Below are positions 184-8,295 of a DNA stretch of 41,597 nt, one piece after another; position 1 is the stretch's first letter, and each line of letters starts with the position of its first letter. Source of the stretch: Eggerthellaceae bacterium (GTDB lineage: Bacteria > Actinomycetota > Coriobacteriia > Coriobacteriales > Eggerthellaceae); NCBI GenBank assembly GCA_017432445.1, contig JAFRJC010000093.1, positions 1-41,597 of the forward strand, given 5' to 3'. The position numbers and the translations under genes are program-made. The notes under the pieces were generated by a model. The model saw only the letters and a program-made list of their open reading frames with translations. It was not told where the DNA came from and ran no database searches.

Positions 184-547
184 TGGTGGAGGCGCGGAGA
201 ATCGAACTCCGGTCCATACTGGATCCCTGGTCAGGCTCTACAAGCTTATTCGCTGTTCTGCTTTAAGGCCAGCTGGGCACAGCGACGCGCGTTGCCGTCC
301 CGAGCCGGTTCGATCTTAGCGCGCGCCATACCGACTACGTGCGCGCGAGCATTTCCCTAAGATGACATCGCACCCAGGGCGGGAAAGCACCTGGGATTGA
401 CGCGCCGACTTATGTTATGCGGCGAGGGCGTACTGCCCAGAAAGATTAGTTTTGCCAATTAATTTGACAGTACCCCTGTTTAACGTGGAAAGGAGACCAC
501 GACCTGCTCCTCACCTCAGACCCACCATGTCGAAACCAGTCGCCCCC
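184..547 (-). ncRNA. ssrA: Transfer-messenger RNA (tmRNA)
   Basis: This RNA rescues stalled ribosomes together with SmpB and tags the unfinished peptide for proteolysis. The 5' end begins GGGGGCGACTGGTTTCGACA at 547. The 3' end has a T-arm with GTTCGATTC and the acceptor strand CGCCTCC followed by ACCA at 184-187. GGGGGCG pairs with CGCCTCC with one G-U, which fixes both ends and gives 364 nt. The CCA is genome-encoded. The tag frame is at 456-415 on this strand: it starts with a GGC (Gly) resume codon and reads GKTNLSGQYALAA before TAA. The tag ends in the usual ALAA degron and its GKTN start resembles the Bacillus-type tag. smpB lies about 850 bp upstream on the same strand and rnr further up, so the trans-translation partners are clustered. 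A promoter candidate lies at 671-700. Confidence 0.96.
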
Positions 548-1394: not shown

Positions 1395-1877
1395 TTACTT
1401 ATAACGGTCCTTCATAGCGCGATCGATCTCGCGCTGTGCATCGCGCTTGGCAATTGACTGGCGCTTGTCATAGGTCTTCTTGCCCCGCGCAAGGGCAAGC
1501 TCCACCTTGACGAGCGAATTCTCCTTGAAATACATGGAGACGGGCACGAGCGTCAAGCCCTTTTCGCGCGTCTTCTGTTCCAGCATGCGGATCTCGCGGC
1601 GGTGCAGCAGCAGCTTGCGCTTTCGATCGGGATCGACGTTGGCGATGTTGCCGTTGCTGTACGGCGCGATATGCACGTTATGCAGCCACACCTCACCTCC
1701 GCGGATGAGCGCGAAGCAGTCGGTGAGTTGGCAGTTGTTCTCGCGCAGCGAACGCACCTCGGTACCCGAGAGTTCGATGCCCGCCTCGAACGTTTCCAAA
1801 ATCTCGTACTCGTGGTAGGCACGGCGATTCTTGGCAATGGGCTTGCGCTCACGCTTCTTGCTGTAGAACTCGGCCAT
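1395..1877 (-). CDS. smpB: SsrA-binding protein SmpB
   Basis: SmpB binds the tRNA-like domain of tmRNA and places it in the empty A site of stalled ribosomes. The 160-aa protein has the usual length and family motifs: KNRRAYHEYEILETFEAGI near the N terminus, LSGTEVRSLRE around 40, GEVWLHNVHIAPYSNGN in the OB core, and the basic tail with GKKTYDKRQ...DRAMKDRYK that reaches into the mRNA channel. I chose the ATG at 1877 because AAGGAG lies 8 bases upstream; TTG (1883) and GTG (1880) are alternatives only 1-2 codons longer. Its ATG shares one base with the TGA of the upstream 92-aa gene (TGATG), so the two are probably translationally coupled. Confidence 0.97.
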   Translation of the reverse strand: MAEFYSKKRERKPIAKNRRAYHEYEILETFEAGIELSGTEVRSLRENNCQLTDCFALIRGGEVWLHNVHIAPYSNGNIANVDPDRKRKLLLHRREIRMLEQKTREKGLTLVPVSMYFKENSLVKVELALARGKKTYDKRQSIAKRDAQREIDRAMKDRYK

Positions 1878-2155
1878 CACCAATACTCCTTCGTGCGCCT
1901 GCGACGACGCTTCTTCTCGGGTCGAAAATCCAGAGTCAGCTGACCATCGAGCGGTTCATTGGCAGCTGTCTTTCGCTCCACCCTATCGATGCTCCAAGAA
2001 GCCGCGTCCTTGCCGAACGTTTCCAGCATCTTCATGCGCGCATCACGCAAATTGTCCTTCGAGTTCGCCCGCGCATCGCTTTCGAACTCGAACACGCCCG
2101 ACCCGCGCACATCAGCTGCAGCCGGCGATTGATAATATGCAAGATACGTAGCCAC
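1877..2155 (-). CDS. Small basic protein coupled to smpB, unknown
   Basis: A 92-aa protein I do not recognise. It starts at GTG 2155 with AAAGGG about 10 bases upstream, and its TGA overlaps the smpB ATG by one base. The N-terminal half reads MATYLAYYQSPAAADVRGSG...; the middle has the charged helix-like stretch SKDNLRDARMKMLETFGKD; the end is very basic (KKRRRRRTKEYW), which suggests nucleic-acid or ribosome contact. There is no signal peptide or membrane segment. The coding potential is supported mainly by the exact overlap with smpB and a plausible ribosome-binding site. It is the first gene after the 159-nt palindrome at 2210-2368. Confidence 0.7.
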   Translation of the reverse strand: MATYLAYYQSPAAADVRGSGVFEFESDARANSKDNLRDARMKMLETFGKDAASWSIDRVERKTAANEPLDGQLTLDFRPEKKRRRRRTKEYW

Positions 2156-2398: not shown

Positions 2399-3268
2399 TT
2401 ATTCCTCCACCTTGATCGCTCCGTCAAGCCTTTCTTTTCGATATCCCTTCGCGTTGACATCGTTCGCCTGCACGTGCGTATGGTTACCCCCCACCCCTTC
2501 GGGCGTGAAGAAGGAGAGCTGCACATCGATCAGATCCTTTTGGATATCGCGCACATGGCTAATCTCGGTTACTCCCGCCTCGACGCGATCTCCAGCGCTT
2601 ACGAGCGGATCCTGCGTATGTATGAGCACGCAATCCATGTTCGGTGCCCCATCGGGCTGAATATGTATCCGGATATCGGGGACTTCGTCGTATAGCATGT
2701 AGTCCTTGACCAGCACGACCGTCCCTGTCACCGGCGAGCGCACGATGGTGCCTGCAGGGGCGCCAACGTCGATGGAGGTGTCCATTGGCGTCGTGTCGGT
2801 GGTGCGCCAGATGTGCAGGGCTTCCGCATCGAGCCATTCCCCCTCTTCCTGGTCATGGTTGATGCGCGTGTTGCGCTTCTCCAGAGCCTTCTCGGGATTG
2901 GCTTCGGGAAGCTCGGTCGTGAACACGAGCGCGTAATCGTATGAAGCCTGGTGGAACAGCACGCCCGTCAGATCCGCTGGCGCGATTGGGCTCCTGAACT
3001 CAACATCGCCGATACGGGCAATGAGGGGCGTGCGATGCTGCCGCAGCCATTCTTCATGTTCGGCAGCCTCTTCCTCGTCGGTGGGAAGCATATCGTCGGA
3101 GTCGGCAAAGACACCGTCCCCGTTGCCAAACTCGAACTCCACTGCCTGCAAGCCGAGTCGCTCCAAGACAGGTTGGGCAAAATCCGGCTTGATTACGACA
3201 ACCGCCGTAATGGCAGCGACCAACGCCAGCGCTATGAGCGCCAGCCACATCAGAACCTGTTTGACCAT
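2399..3268 (-). CDS. Membrane-anchored M23/LytM-like protein
   Basis: A 289-aa protein with one N-terminal membrane segment (about residues 5-26), an acidic extracytoplasmic stretch (about 58-75), and a C-terminal domain that follows the LytM/M23 peptidase fold. Residues 166-185 read IDVGAPAGTIVRSPVTGTVV, 216-232 read IHTQDPLVSAGDRVEAG, and GNHTHVQ at 261-267 is the HxH zinc motif. In active M23 enzymes the first motif is HxxxD; here it is D163-x3-D167, so one zinc His appears to be Asp, while H217, H263 and H265 are kept. It may be a degenerate, regulatory LytM protein. The ATG at 3268 shares one base with the rnr TGA. It lies downstream of ftsEX and a CtpA-like gene, a context where LytM proteins act as FtsEX partners in other bacteria; that link is inference. 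Confidence 0.75.
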   Translation of the reverse strand: MVKQVLMWLALIALALVAAITAVVVIKPDFAQPVLERLGLQAVEFEFGNGDGVFADSDDMLPTDEEEAAEHEEWLRQHRTPLIARIGDVEFRSPIAPADLTGVLFHQASYDYALVFTTELPEANPEKALEKRNTRINHDQEEGEWLDAEALHIWRTTDTTPMDTSIDVGAPAGTIVRSPVTGTVVLVKDYMLYDEVPDIRIHIQPDGAPNMDCVLIHTQDPLVSAGDRVEAGVTEISHVRDIQKDLIDVQLSFFTPEGVGGNHTHVQANDVNAKGYRKERLDGAIKVEE

Positions 3269-5289
3269 CACTTCACCAACCTGAATCTGAGGGTGCGCGT
3301 ACGCCTGTCGGCCTCGACCAGACGGAGCGCGACGCGCTTGCCCAGGCGGTACTGCTTGCCCGTATCGGATCCGGTCAACGTGTAACGCACGCTGTCAAGC
3401 GCGAAGTACTCATGTCCCAGATCCTCGATGGCAACCACGCCTTCCGCCGTATTGTCCAGGCGAACGAGCAGGCCATACGGGGCAACTCCGCTGATCATCC
3501 CCGAGAACGTCTGCCCTATGCAGGTCTCCATGAGCTCGACGATCTTTACCTCTTGGGAATCCCGCGCCGCGCGTTCTGCAATCCGCTCCATTTCGGACGA
3601 ATGCTCGGCGATCCAAGGGAGGTTCGACACTTCCTGGTCGAACTTCTGCGGCCGTCCGAAAAGCGCTGCTTTGAGCATGCGATGCACTACAAGGTCGGGA
3701 TAACGCCTGATAGGCGATGTGAAATGAGCGTAAGCATCGCTGGCGAGCGCGTAATGCCCGCTCAAGGCGGGTTCGTAGAGCGCCCGTTTCATCGAGCGGA
3801 GGACCAGCGAGGTCACGAGCGCATCCTCACCGCGTCCCGCACACAGCTCCAAAACATGTGAGATCTCGTGCGGATTGCCCGCCACGAAAGCCGCTTTGTT
3901 CACATCAGAAAACCAGCGGAACTCTTGCAGCACGGGCACGAGCGCCGCGAGGCTATCTCGGGATGGCTTGTCATGTGTGCGGTACACGCAGGGAAAGCCC
4001 GTGTCGCGGAGGAAACGGGCGACGGCCTCGTTGGCTGCAATCATGGCCTCCTCGATGAGCTGGGTCGCTTCGGTGCGCCTCCTCAGCTCAATGGAAAGCG
4101 GCATGCCCTGCCCGTCCAACTTCACGCGGGCCTCCACGGTGTCGAAATCTATCCCGCCCGCCAGCGCTCGCAGGTGCATGCGGCTCTTCGCCAGCTGGGA
4201 AAGCTTGCACAGGCGCTCTGCGAGCTGCTCTTCGAGGCCCTCCGCGCCCTTCAAGGTGACAAGTTTCCCGACGCGTGCAGCGTCCATGCAATCCTGCGCC
4301 TGGTCGTAAGTCAGCCGAGCGCACGAGCGGATAACCGCTGGATAGATATCCGCATCGATTACCTGCCCTTTCGCATCCAGCACCAAATCGACCGTCATGC
4401 TCCTCCGGTCTTCGCCGGGTTTCAGAGAGCACAGCTCGTTAGAGAGGGCTTCGGGCAGCATGGGCACAACGCGGTCGACCAGATATACGCTGCAGGCGCG
4501 CTTCCGCGCGTCCAAATCAACTGAGCTACCCCAGGGAACATAATGGGAGACGTCTGCGATATGCACTCCCAGACGCCAACGTGCGCAATCCACACGCCCC
4601 TCGTCCAATGGCTCCAACGACACCGCGTCGTCGAAATCACGAGCGTCGGAAGGGTCGATGGTGAAGACGAAGCGGTCACGCAGATCGCGGTAATTGCCTG
4701 CCAGGGCCTTTTCGATCTCGAGTTGGGCTGCCGAGGCCTCGTCGAGGCACCCCTGCGAAAACGGGCCTTCCAGCTTGTAGCGCGCGACTATCAGATCGAT
4801 GGGCACCCGCTCGTCATCCGCATCGCCCAGCACCTCCACAATCCGACCTGTTGCGGCCTCCTTGTGGCTGGGATAGGTTTCCATTGCGACGCGGACAATG
4901 GACCCGTCGGGTATGTTCCCGTTTTCGCTGAGCATGGTGAATATGTCGTAGGGAATACGCGGGTCCTCTGGCACGACCACGCCGAAGGGCTCGGCCACTT
5001 CGTAACGGCCGACGATTTCGGCATGGGCGTGTTCCACAACCCGTTTCACACGCGCCTCGCGCCTGCGCGTCGACGAAGCTGCCTGAGCCAGTGCCTTGCG
5101 GGAGCGCTCCTGACGCGCAGGCGACACTTCCACGAGATCGCCGTCGAAGGCACCGTTCATCTTGTCTGCCGGTATGAAGTACTCGCCTTCGGCTGTTCTC
5201 ACGAAACCGAACCCGCCGCGGGCGACCGACAAAACACCGCGTGGATACGTATGCGCCGTCGCGCGTGTGTTCGAGCGCTTCCTCGGCAT
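3268..5289 (-). CDS. rnr: Ribonuclease R (RNB family 3'-5' exoribonuclease)
   Basis: RNase R degrades structured and non-stop mRNA from the 3' end and works with tmRNA/SmpB during trans-translation. The protein is 673 aa, shorter than the E. coli enzyme (about 813), largely because the N-terminal helix-turn-helix extension is absent. Order: cold-shock OB domain at about 16-60 (GVLSVARGGFGFVR), a second OB region to about 165, the RNB domain with the catalytic Asp cluster TIDPSDARDFDDAV at 210-223, and a C-terminal S1 domain (TFSGMISGVAPYGLLVRLD) ending RTLRFRLVK. It starts 5 nt after the upstream S41 gene and overlaps the downstream M23-like gene by one base, so it sits inside an operon. No convincing ribosome-binding site is seen before its ATG. 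Confidence 0.95.
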   Translation of the reverse strand: MPRKRSNTRATAHTYPRGVLSVARGGFGFVRTAEGEYFIPADKMNGAFDGDLVEVSPARQERSRKALAQAASSTRRREARVKRVVEHAHAEIVGRYEVAEPFGVVVPEDPRIPYDIFTMLSENGNIPDGSIVRVAMETYPSHKEAATGRIVEVLGDADDERVPIDLIVARYKLEGPFSQGCLDEASAAQLEIEKALAGNYRDLRDRFVFTIDPSDARDFDDAVSLEPLDEGRVDCARWRLGVHIADVSHYVPWGSSVDLDARKRACSVYLVDRVVPMLPEALSNELCSLKPGEDRRSMTVDLVLDAKGQVIDADIYPAVIRSCARLTYDQAQDCMDAARVGKLVTLKGAEGLEEQLAERLCKLSQLAKSRMHLRALAGGIDFDTVEARVKLDGQGMPLSIELRRRTEATQLIEEAMIAANEAVARFLRDTGFPCVYRTHDKPSRDSLAALVPVLQEFRWFSDVNKAAFVAGNPHEISHVLELCAGRGEDALVTSLVLRSMKRALYEPALSGHYALASDAYAHFTSPIRRYPDLVVHRMLKAALFGRPQKFDQEVSNLPWIAEHSSEMERIAERAARDSQEVKIVELMETCIGQTFSGMISGVAPYGLLVRLDNTAEGVVAIEDLGHEYFALDSVRYTLTGSDTGKQYRLGKRVALRLVEADRRTRTLRFRLVK

Positions 5290-5294
5290 GGCGC

Positions 5295-6587
5295 TTAGTC
5301 ACCGGAGGCCAACGATGCGGCAAGCTCTATCGCATAGCTCTTCTGCTTGTCCTTATCGGCGTCCAAAGGCTTGGTGGGAGTGACTCCGACCTGGTCGATA
5401 GCATGTCCTTCGGGAGTAAGGTAATAAGCGGCCGTGTAACGGAGGGCGCCGCCGAACGATAGCTGCGAGACAACCTGGACAGACCCCTTGCCGAGCGTGG
5501 TAGAGCCGACGAGCGCCGAAGCCCTCTGGCTTTCCTTGAGGGCTGCCGCAATCACCTCGGCACCGGCTGCAGTGTTCTGGTTGATCAGCACGACAAGCGG
5601 TGCATCGGTCACGGGCTGACCCGATGCGTTCTTCGCGGAAATGCCGTTGTTCGTCTGCACCTCCACGACCGTGCCGCTCTTCATGAAGAGGCTTGCCACG
5701 TCTACCGCCTGGGACAGGTAACCGCCGGGATTGTCGCGCAGGTCCAAGACATAACTTGTCGCACCGCTATCGGCAAGGTCCTCGACCGCTTTCTTCGTGA
5801 GCGCCGCCGCGTTCTCGGTCAATTGGCGAATCTTGATGTAGCCGACCTTGCTGTCCTTGTCATATTTTTTGGTGATGTTCGCCTCGTCGTACTCCTGGCA
5901 CATGAGCGTGGTGGTGAACTCCTCGCCACCTTCTGCCAGGGGCTTCTCGGGGCGACGCCACGTGATGACGACCTCTGAACCAGCAGCTTGCGCAAGTTTC
6001 GCCGTAACCTCGGCGCGAGACCACGTCTGTGAGCTGTCCACGTCCACCGACACCACGAAGTCGCCCGCCTGAACGCCCTTTTCCTGCGCATCAGAGCCTT
6101 CGAAAACATCGACTGCGTACGCCTGGCCGTCATGCTCCGAGAACAACACGCCTATGCCGGCATACCCTTCGTCTTGTTGCGTGAGCAATTCGGTGTAGCG
6201 TTCGTTGGAGTAGTAGCGCATGAACGGGTCGTTCGAGGCCTCTGCGATGGCCGTCAACACGGCGTCGGTTGCCGGATCGAGCTCGTAGGTATCCAGGCTG
6301 TCTTCGGCAATCAGCTTATCGACCTCTTTGACACGCGCCGAAAGCGAATGGAAAACATCTTCAGATGTCGCATTATTGTCCGATGTGGCAGTTTGGGTGA
6401 TGCCGGTGATGGAAGACGGAAGGCCCAGCGAAGCCAGGAAGTGCGTGTGCCCGCGAAGCGCAAACCCCAGGCAGAATGCAATTATCAGGGCGATTATCGC
6501 CGTGAAAATCCTGATGAAACGAAAATTGCGCGCACGCATCTTCCGCGTGCGCGCAACAGCTCGGTTGTTGTTACCCTGGCTTGCCAT
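5295..6587 (-). CDS. S41 CtpA-like protein, catalytic Ser replaced
   Basis: A 430-aa carboxyl-terminal-processing-protease homologue on the outer side of the membrane. It has a basic N terminus and a membrane segment at about 24-44, a PDZ domain at about 140-215 (GYAGIGVLFS...), and the S41 core (YIKIRQL at 250; LDLRDNPGGYLSQAVDVA at 281-298). In active CtpA/D1P proteins the nucleophile lies three residues before a conserved Glu (S-A-S-E). Here the segment is NQNTAAGAEV (336-345), putting Ala341 at that position; E344 and the general-base Lys in LGKG (K367) remain. The enzyme may therefore be a pseudoprotease, unless Thr339 or another residue substitutes. It lies 21 nt after ftsX and 5 nt before rnr, the usual ftsE-ftsX-ctpA order. 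Confidence 0.9.
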   Translation of the reverse strand: MASQGNNNRAVARTRKMRARNFRFIRIFTAIIALIIAFCLGFALRGHTHFLASLGLPSSITGITQTATSDNNATSEDVFHSLSARVKEVDKLIAEDSLDTYELDPATDAVLTAIAEASNDPFMRYYSNERYTELLTQQDEGYAGIGVLFSEHDGQAYAVDVFEGSDAQEKGVQAGDFVVSVDVDSSQTWSRAEVTAKLAQAAGSEVVITWRRPEKPLAEGGEEFTTTLMCQEYDEANITKKYDKDSKVGYIKIRQLTENAAALTKKAVEDLADSGATSYVLDLRDNPGGYLSQAVDVASLFMKSGTVVEVQTNNGISAKNASGQPVTDAPLVVLINQNTAAGAEVIAAALKESQRASALVGSTTLGKGSVQVVSQLSFGGALRYTAAYYLTPEGHAIDQVGVTPTKPLDADKDKQKSYAIELAASLASGD

Positions 6588-6608: not shown

Positions 6609-7514
6609 CTACACCTTGAGGTAGCGGCGCATGGCGAAGGCCGAACCGATGAGGCCGATGATCAAGCCAGCCACCAGCAAAGCCAGATAAATTGCCAGGA
6701 AGACGTTCATCTCGACCTGAATCGGCAGGAACGCGAGCGAAGCCTGCAGCTTGGGCAACGCGATGCGGCGGATCAGCTCGATGCAGCCAATGGCCAGCGC
6801 TGCGCCGATGATGGCATGCAGGGCGCCTTCCATCAGGAAGGGGCCACGTATGAAGCCGTTGGAGGCACCCACCAGGCGCATGATGGCGATTTCCTTGCGG
6901 CGGGCCATGATGGCCAGGCGAATGGTGTTGTTGATGAACACCAAGGCGATGAACACCAGCAAAGCGATGAGCACCAGACCACCGTAACGCAGGTAGTTGG
7001 TCACCTGGAACAGGCGCTCGACGGTGCGCTGACCGTACTTGAGGGAATCGGCGGGATTCTCCTCGTCGGCCACCTTGGCGAACAGATCGCTCGTCTGGAT
7101 CTTGCCGGCGACTTCCTCGACCTTCTGCGGATCGGAGAGCTCGACGTTGATGGAAGCGGGAAGCGGATTTCCGCCCAGCTCGTCAACGATGTCGGCATTG
7201 GAGGACATCGCCTTGAACTCCTCGAGGGCCTCGTCCTTGGTCGTGAACGACACCGACGACACGCCGTCGAGACCGGCAATGTAAGCCTGAACTGCGTCGA
7301 GATCGGCTTGGCTGGCGCTATCGGCCACGTAAGCGGTGATGGACACCTCGTTTTCCACCGACTTGACGATGTTGTCGACGACGGTCGCGCCGACGAGGAA
7401 CAAGCCGATGATGAACAACGACAGGAAAATCGTGATGATGGAGCCCAACGTGGTGGACAAGTTGCGGGCAAAACCCTGGATAGATTGCTTGAAGAAATAC
7501 AGGATGCTAGACAT
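6609..7514 (-). CDS. ftsX: Cell-division ABC transporter-like protein FtsX
   Basis: The membrane partner of FtsE; FtsEX links divisome assembly to activation of cell-wall hydrolases. The protein is 301 aa with a cytoplasmic N terminus, TM1 at about 25-46, a large extracellular loop (about 47-180) typical of FtsX, then three C-terminal membrane segments with [26 protein letters not shown] between them, the FtsX/MacB-type coupling loop. The ATG at 7514 overlaps the end of ftsE by 8 nt. The longer in-frame start at 7559 would lie wholly inside ftsE and is less likely. Confidence 0.95.
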
Positions 7515-8295
7515 CGGAACCGTACACCCCCCTCTGCTGGTCGCGGGTAAGGTGTCCACGCTCCAGCGCGATCACGCGACGACGCATGTTGTCGACCATC
7601 TCGCGGTCGTGCGTAGCCACGAGCACCGTGGTGCCCGTACGGTTGATGCGCTCGAGCAGGTCCATGATGCCGCGCGAGGTTTGCGGGTCAAGGTTGCCGG
7701 TCGGCTCGTCGCACACGAGCAGCGGCGGGCGGTTGACGATAGCGCGTGCGATGGAGACGCGCTGCGCCTCGCCACCCGAAAGCTGGTCGGGCAACTTGTC
7801 GAGCTTGTCCTGCAAGCCGACGAGCCTGAGCACCTCGGGCACCTGCGTGCGCACGATGGAGCGGCTCTTTCCGATAACCTCAAGCGCGAAGGCGACGTTC
7901 TCGAAGACCGTCTTGTTCGGCAGCAGCTTGAAGTCCTGGAACACGCAGCCGATGTTGCGGCGCAGGTAAGGCACGCGCCAGTTGCGCATGCTTCCCAGGT
8001 CCTCGTTGGCGATGGTGATCGTACCCGAAGTGGGACGCAGCTCGCGGATAATCAGGCGCACCAGCGTTGACTTGCCGGAACCCGAATGCCCTACGAGGAA
8101 CACGAACTCGCCCGGGTAAATCTGAAGAGAAACGTTGTCGAGTGCGGGACGATTCGGCTGTGCGGGATACACCTTCGAAACCCGGTCAAACGAGATAACC
8201 GGTGCTCCCTGCTGAGGAATGTCTTCGGCTTGCAACACGGGCAAGGCCATCGACAAATCAGCGGAACGCGCCCCCTGGTTGGTGGCTTCTGTCAC
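7507..8295 (-). CDS. ftsE: Cell-division ATP-binding protein FtsE
   Basis: The ABC ATPase that drives FtsX. It is 262 aa with Walker [10 protein letters not shown] at 69-77, the FtsE-type Q-loop segment [20 protein letters not shown], the signature LSGGEAQR, Walker [13 protein letters not shown] and the switch His in VLVATHD. About 32 residues precede the usual FtsE start ([11 protein letters not shown]), a non-conserved extension. The GTG at 8295 has GGAG 7 bases upstream; an internal ATG at residue 16 is an alternative. A 43-nt gap separates it from transketolase, so the two may share a transcript. Confidence 0.95.

Follow-up and report, generated by a model that had tools for sequence, protein, structure and literature searches.

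A probable pseudoprotease of C-terminal processing peptidase descent encoded beside ftsEX in Eggerthellaceae

Gene order and domain content at the locus

The window, i.e. the whole stretch of 41,597 nucleotides analysed here (Eggerthellaceae bacterium, assembly GCA_017432445.1, contig JAFRJC010000093.1), carries a minus-strand run of genes in which a relative of the C-terminal processing peptidases (CTPs) of family S41 lies between ftsX and rnr. CTPs degrade or trim cell-wall enzymes and signalling proteins. The features on which the analysis draws are as follows:

7507..8295, minus strand: ftsE (TIGR02673, 287 bits, cut-off 264.85)
6609..7514, minus strand: ftsX, 21 bases upstream of the S41 gene (NF038347, 262.3 bits, cut-off 225)
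5295..6587, minus strand: S41/CTP-like protein of 430 aa with the nucleophilic Ser replaced by Ala341 (reading frame, Pfam, NCBIfam, phmmer)
6453..6572, minus strand: N-terminal helix, residues 6-45, a putative membrane anchor judging from its hydrophobic part (predicted structure and sequence)
5940..6158, minus strand: PDZ domain, residues 144-216 (Pfam)
5373..5849, minus strand: Peptidase_S41 domain, residues 247-405 (Pfam)
5571..5573, minus strand: codon ACT of Thr339, the column of a non-catalytic Ser/Thr in active-type CTPs (alignment)
5565..5567, minus strand: codon GCC of Ala341, the nucleophile column (alignment)
5487..5489, minus strand: codon of Lys367, the column of the CTP catalytic Lys (alignment)
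5475..5477, minus strand: codon of Gln371, the column of the triad Gln proposed for CtpB (alignment)
3268..5289, minus strand: rnr (RNase R), 5 bases downstream of the S41 gene (TIGR02063, 639 bits, cut-off 597.85)

The low end of the minus-strand run containing ftsE, ftsX, the S41 gene and rnr is formed by a tmRNA gene (window 184-547, minus strand; Rfam, 147.9 bits) and smpB (window 1395-1883, minus strand).

The first-pass annotation had placed the S41 gene directly behind ftsEX, and the gap of 21 bases to ftsX agrees with it. The same order recurs among relatives, where ftsX adjoins the S41 gene on the same strand in 123/123 Eggerthellaceae loci and in 25/27 loci from other families of the order, and rnr adjoins it in 116/123 and 24/27, respectively; the flanks used for these counts were short or ended at a contig edge in some loci. 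Median gaps at the S41 gene are about 23 bases to ftsX and about 10 to rnr. Since ftsX adjoins the gene in the sister families too, it is taken to be the same gene there, with Ser, Lys and Gln intact. Among 68 further loci (L045-L112), five have an ftsX match near the S41 gene, two from Coriobacteriia and three from outside the class (L049, L056, L087), so that the ftsEX neighbourhood is shared with a few distant CTPs of the CtpA/CtpB type as well. Gene order, and gene order alone, points to a partnership of the S41 protein with FtsEX. Counting against such a tie, rnr is equally close, and ftsX is found without the S41 gene in other genomes: when 25 genomes lacking an S41 match were searched for ftsX, rnr came immediately after ftsX in several (L233 and L234 among them), others had unrelated genes after ftsX, and some gave only weak permease matches.

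The S41 fold and the PDZ domain of CtpA/CtpB-type CTPs are both present in the window protein, as judged by Pfam, NCBIfam and the predicted fold. The Peptidase_S41 match is strong (E 2.4e-42), the PDZ_2 match lies just above its threshold (E 4.3e-06; 27.3 bits, cut-off 27) and the score against TIGR00225, the C-terminal processing peptidase model, barely exceeds the cut-off (221.8 bits, cut-off 218.6). The AlphaFold2 model, built from 42 sequences (mean pLDDT 88.1, pTM 0.65), matches solved CtpA and CtpB structures with Z of 28.7-30.3, the best being H. pylori CtpA (Z 30.3, 3.7 Å over 323 residues), and the active form of B. subtilis CtpB aligns with Z 29.1 (4.8 Å over 337 residues). Lower scores were obtained for structures of the vertebrate retinoid carrier IRBP/RBP3 (1j7x, 4lur and 7jti; Z 17.1-19.4, 17-19% identity) and for the crotonase-fold isomerase 6sla (Z 13.2 over 146 residues).

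At the active site, the segment NQNTAAGAEV, with Ala341 three residues before Glu344, is present as first reported, in a frame of 430 aa that lies on the minus strand (the first-pass annotation named no strand), and the proposal that Ala341 occupies the S41 nucleophile position is borne out by the phmmer alignment with P. aeruginosa CtpA, which is free of gaps over the active-site stretch and puts Ala341 in the column of Ser302, the residue that reads Ala in the deposited CtpA S302A mutant 7rqh. The catalytic Ser of CTPs is thus absent from the window protein, and the catalytic Lys and the conserved Gln are present as Lys367 (the Lys of LGKG, likewise noticed at first pass together with the PDZ domain) and Gln371. 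These two lie 4 residues apart, as do Lys327/Gln331 in CtpA (PMC8764530) and Lys334/Gln338 in CtpB (PMC3808539). An extra residue, 358, stands between columns 341 and 367 and is common to only 3/123 family members. The column of CtpB R168, the Arg that couples the PDZ domain with the protease, reads Ala199 in the window protein. Weighed as a possible second mark of inactivity, this column holds Arg or Lys in 61 of 67 L045-L112 loci and is mixed in 25 Ser-bearing relatives from the order (R 7, H 6, Q 6, K 3, S 2, other 1), of which 20 have an Arg one column later.

Conservation and history of the nucleophile column

Three sets of relatives were compared. The family set comprised 123 full-length genes from 127 matching Eggerthellaceae genomes, with four present only as fragments left out (G012, G014, G080, G085); the order set comprised 27 genes from 29 matching genomes of other families (G233 and G263 left out); and 67 of the 68 L045-L112 loci were used (L078 left out). 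As L045-L047 are loci of the class, two of them sharing sequence with L221 and L226 of the order set, the count outside the class is 64.

The nucleophilic Ser is found in 64/64 relatives outside the class and in 25/27 orthologues from other families of the order, whereas among the 123 Eggerthellaceae orthologues column 341 reads Ala in 85, Gly in 27 and Ser in 11, leaving 112/123 without Ser. The first-pass annotation had proposed seeing whether Ala is conserved in orthologues, which these counts affirm for Ala and, more broadly, for Ala/Gly. The surrounding residues have been held: Lys367 is kept in 122/123 (one Arg), Gln371 in 121/123, and Glu344, Gly366 and Asp282 in all 123, and 109 of the 112 orthologues without Ser341 retain both Lys and Gln. 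A smaller group of 12 family loci (L033-L044), which includes Enteroscipio rubneri, Adlercreutzia equolifaciens, Adlercreutzia muris and Slackia faecicanis, gives Ala 8, Gly 3 (S. faecicanis among them) and Ser 1. Ser-bearing orthologues of the family include those of G096-G098.

The codons at column 341 are mixed (Ala: GCC 27, GCG 24, GCT 21, GCA 13; Gly: GGT 15, GGC 9, GGA 3; Ser: ten TCN, one AGC), which argues for an old change and not for an assembly fault. A sequencing error behind Ala341 is excluded by the occurrence of Ala in 85/123 orthologues with four different codons, and a pseudogene is rejected by conservation and open frames among the orthologues.

Some departures from the common pattern were also noted. 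Two loci (L204, L205) have Ala in the nucleophile column together with Ala for Gln371, the Lys being kept, and one (L141) has Gly there together with Arg for Lys367.

Another family of the order provides a second case, in which the gene immediately following ftsX in L231 and L232 encodes an S41 relative that has Gly in column 341 and Asp or Ser in place of the Lys. No Pfam match to a PDZ domain was obtained for these two proteins, that of L232 being scanned from the first start codon in the available stretch. In a quick tree of 150 rows, built with columns 336-346 excluded, both stand apart from Eggerthellaceae on long branches, and the 123 Eggerthellaceae rows fall on one side of a branch with support 93. 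This suggests, from sequence comparison, that proteolysis may have been lost at least twice in the order, with the S41 core staying beside ftsX.

Within the family, the 11 Ser rows require 8 changes on the 150-row quick tree; well supported branches force 7 of these, and a mixture-model quick tree of 91 rows again gives 8 changes, 7 forced. In AU tests, both made on quick trees of 91 of the 150 rows, a single clade of Ser rows was rejected (p 1e-57, mixture model), as was a single clade of non-Ser rows (p 2.5e-91, LG+G4). Models that allow Ser to be regained fit better than those that forbid it, both with two rates each (lnL -61.7 vs -71.8) and with six rates against four (lnL -58.5 vs -64.6), and parsimony needs 17-19 changes with regain vs 32 without. 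Which residue stood at the root of the family depends on the model, the one-rate model favouring Ala and the two- and six-rate models favouring Ser.

One reading of this pattern is a protease toggled off and on over evolutionary time, in which Ala/Gly lineages are inactive and Ser lineages have regained a working enzyme. The scattered Ser rows, the better fit with regain, the one AGC codon beside ten TCN codons, and the Lys and Gln already in place are all in its favour. Nevertheless, the models split over the ancestral state (one Ala, two Ser), and Ser may simply be neutral at a column that changes at about the average rate, which makes this reading unlikely. Column 341 undergoes 17 changes on the family tree, vs a per-site median of 18.5; for Lys367 and Gln371 the count is 1 each, and for Glu344, Gly366 and Asp282 it is 0. 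The column therefore behaves as a site for a small residue rather than as a nucleophile, its former partners being held fast, and since the Ser rows are scattered, Ser has not been kept in the way that catalytic residues are. Still, the 11 Ser-bearing orthologues may be active, going by their sequences.

Interpretation as a pseudoprotease and rival explanations

Loss of peptidase activity is well supported by these comparisons: sister families have a gene with Ser, Lys and Gln at the same place beside ftsX, so that descent is from an active-type S41 peptidase, and a residue essential for catalysis has been lost in 112 of the 123 family members. The conservation of the gene and of its residues implies some function, the nature of which we infer. 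The reading preferred here, held with somewhat better than even confidence, is a pseudoprotease of CTP descent that would still bind peptides and switch conformation and would be tied to FtsEX. The retained catalytic Lys counts against it, as this is unusual for a dead enzyme and fits a changed mechanism too. So do the 11 Ser-bearing orthologues and Ala199 in place of the coupling Arg, a column that varies in Ser-bearing relatives of the order as well.

Laboratory mutants provide the closest comparison. Catalytic inactivity is reported for CtpA S302A and CtpB S309A (PMC8764530, PMC3808539, PMC11021448), which likewise have Ala in the nucleophile column with Lys and Gln intact; these were made in the laboratory, whereas the change in Eggerthellaceae is natural, old and family-wide. 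As reported for CtpB S309A, tail peptides are bound at 2-10 uM and peptide binding alone brings about the active conformation (PMC3808539), and CtpA S302A is described as binding the adaptor LbcA with an affinity close to that of the wild type (0.76 vs 0.92 uM) and as holding a co-purified peptide (PMC11021448). Since such Ser-to-Ala CTPs bind and switch, their natural counterpart can be expected, by analogy, to bind tails and change conformation but not to cut. In general, CtpA/CtpB CTPs (S41, TIGR00225) share with the window protein the domain layout, the fold, the PDZ domain and the active-site Lys and Gln, and differ in the nucleophile that 112/123 Eggerthellaceae proteins lack. One possible reason for the retention of Lys and Gln comes by analogy from CtpB, in which both are described as shifting along with the cap and core, the parts that set the resting form apart from the active one (PMC3808539). 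The weight of the triad Gln is itself disputed in print, Q338E having abolished CtpB activity (PMC3808539) and Q331A having had only a minor effect in CtpA, where a His is proposed instead (PMC11021448); conservation of Gln371 therefore need not imply catalysis.

In the proposed scheme, the ancestor would have been a conventional CTP linked to FtsEX, with the Ser, Lys and Gln still seen in the sister families. In Eggerthellaceae, the nucleophile would have become Ala or Gly in most species, with the fold, the PDZ domain, Lys, Gln and the glycines of the pre-active-site loop retained. The PDZ domain and groove would bind C-terminal tails of secreted or membrane proteins without cutting them, and the switch between resting and active forms known for CtpB would be retained and used at the membrane beside FtsX to hold or present cell-wall enzymes. 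The ftsEX location, in tandem with the control of cell-wall hydrolases ascribed to CTPs in the literature, suggests by analogy that the clients may be wall enzymes under FtsEX control. What the analysis itself shows is the predicted fold, the gene order and a conserved loss of the nucleophile; we infer the absence of all peptidase activity, the binding of peptides, the partnership with FtsEX and the cell-wall clients; the protein probably binds and signals rather than cuts. A more specific version can be offered only tentatively, namely that a membrane-anchored pseudo-CTP serves FtsEX by sensing protein tails and signalling to FtsX-controlled wall enzymes, which stay uncut, and that a single mutation separates it from a protease, a step back that it may have taken several times. 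The single-mutation distance would follow from Lys and Gln staying and from Ser recurring in scattered species.

A changed mechanism is the next alternative: the protein would still be a peptidase, with Thr339 (or Ser340 where present) as nucleophile and Lys367 as base. In agreement with it, each of the 112 orthologues that lack Ser341 has a Ser or a Thr at 339, Lys and Gln have been retained, and Thr, found at this position in 120/123 family members, takes the place of a Ser found in 57/64 relatives outside the class. The remaining 7 of these 64 active-type relatives have Thr, however, so that the hydroxyl at 339 is no novelty. Moreover, CtpA S302A and CtpB S309A retain the Ser of column 339, which precedes the nucleophile by two positions, yet are reported to be inactive (PMC8764530, PMC3808539, PMC11021448), which makes Thr339 an unlikely substitute; Ser340 occurs in only 23/112 orthologues without Ser341, and a helix is predicted to begin at 341, two residues past 339. 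Continued peptidase activity of this kind is accordingly judged quite improbable. The first-pass forecast of a pseudoprotease or a substrate-binding regulator thus stood with regard to the loss of the nucleophile (Ala/Gly in 112/123, a second S41 match in only 5/138 genomes) and fell short where it allowed for the use of Thr339, which is disfavoured by the equivalent Ser/Thr in active-type relatives and in the inactive mutants.

Very little probability is given to a decaying protease relic heading for loss. The match is absent in 183/297 order-level genomes and in 11/138 family genomes, rnr follows ftsX directly in several of those without it, and two family matches (G091, G093) contain an internal stop. 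Against these, the match is present in 127/138 family genomes with no internal stop in all but the two, among the matches listed; some of the 11 absences fall in incomplete genomes; and the Lys, Gln, Glu and Gly residues are near-invariant on a tree along which columns undergo about 31 changes each. Least credible of all is a different enzyme of the ClpP/crotonase fold, which would work through its oxyanion loop and Lys367 and need no nucleophilic serine, and for which Gly288 (123/123), Gly289 (122/123), Lys367 (122/123) and the alignment with the isomerase 6sla could be cited, but that match reflects a shared fold only, and the 14 sites newly conserved in the family, Asp160, Asn237 and Arg383 among them, include no evident new acid/base pair as judged from their list.

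Pseudoproteases as a kind, and S41-like binding proteins such as IRBP, are already known. IRBP/RBP3, described as a retinoid carrier, has an S41-like fold in common with the window protein and differs from it in ligand and in its distant sequence; it is not known to have a PDZ domain. EnvC, the E. coli amidase activator described as bound to FtsX, is likewise a regulator at FtsX, with a fold unrelated to that of the window protein, for which the partnership with FtsX is read from gene order. The LytM domain of EnvC is itself degenerate. The iRhoms, portrayed as inactive protease relatives that regulate through binding, differ in belonging to the Rhomboid family and to eukaryotic membranes. Among the matches listed from the open-access literature, a body to which subscription papers mostly do not belong, no paper was found that treats a CTP of Eggerthellaceae naturally devoid of its nucleophile, or a pseudo-CTP linked to FtsEX, which is weak evidence. 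The pseudoprotease reading would provide a natural separation of binding from cutting in more than 100 species, with active-type sister proteins for comparison, and it holds a warning for annotation, as the window protein scores above the threshold of a model named 'C-terminal processing peptidase'.

Other S41 and cell-wall proteins in the genomes

A PF03572 match was found in 125/138 Eggerthellaceae genomes and a second one in only 5/138, one of these below the family cut-off; the FtsX-linked protein is therefore the sole S41 protein found in most species. The search for a second S41 protein, advised in the first-pass annotation, did yield one in the window genome (L002 172-2154, 660 aa; 49.5 bits, the only other PF03572 match), with a lipoprotein-like start and a Ser motif of its own, NSFSCGN. 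No PDZ match in Pfam was obtained for it, so a second CTP was not found in this genome.

The window genome also has five NlpC/P60 and two M23 matches above their cut-offs. Apart from these, window positions 2399-3271 (minus strand) encode a protein of 290 aa that has a hydrophobic stretch near its N-terminus, resembles M23 weakly (21.1 bits, cut-off 28.7) and is matched in 22/138 Eggerthellaceae genomes. The motif of M23 is HxxxD; in this protein and its homologues, the first His of the motif is replaced by Asp in 19/20 loci and by Glu in 1/20. The protein was considered as a degenerate EnvC analogue and dropped, since only the first His is replaced and the later HxH-like motif is kept in 19/20 loci, the twentieth being truncated. 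In 4/20 of its loci, the window's own among them, rnr lies within the stretch examined.
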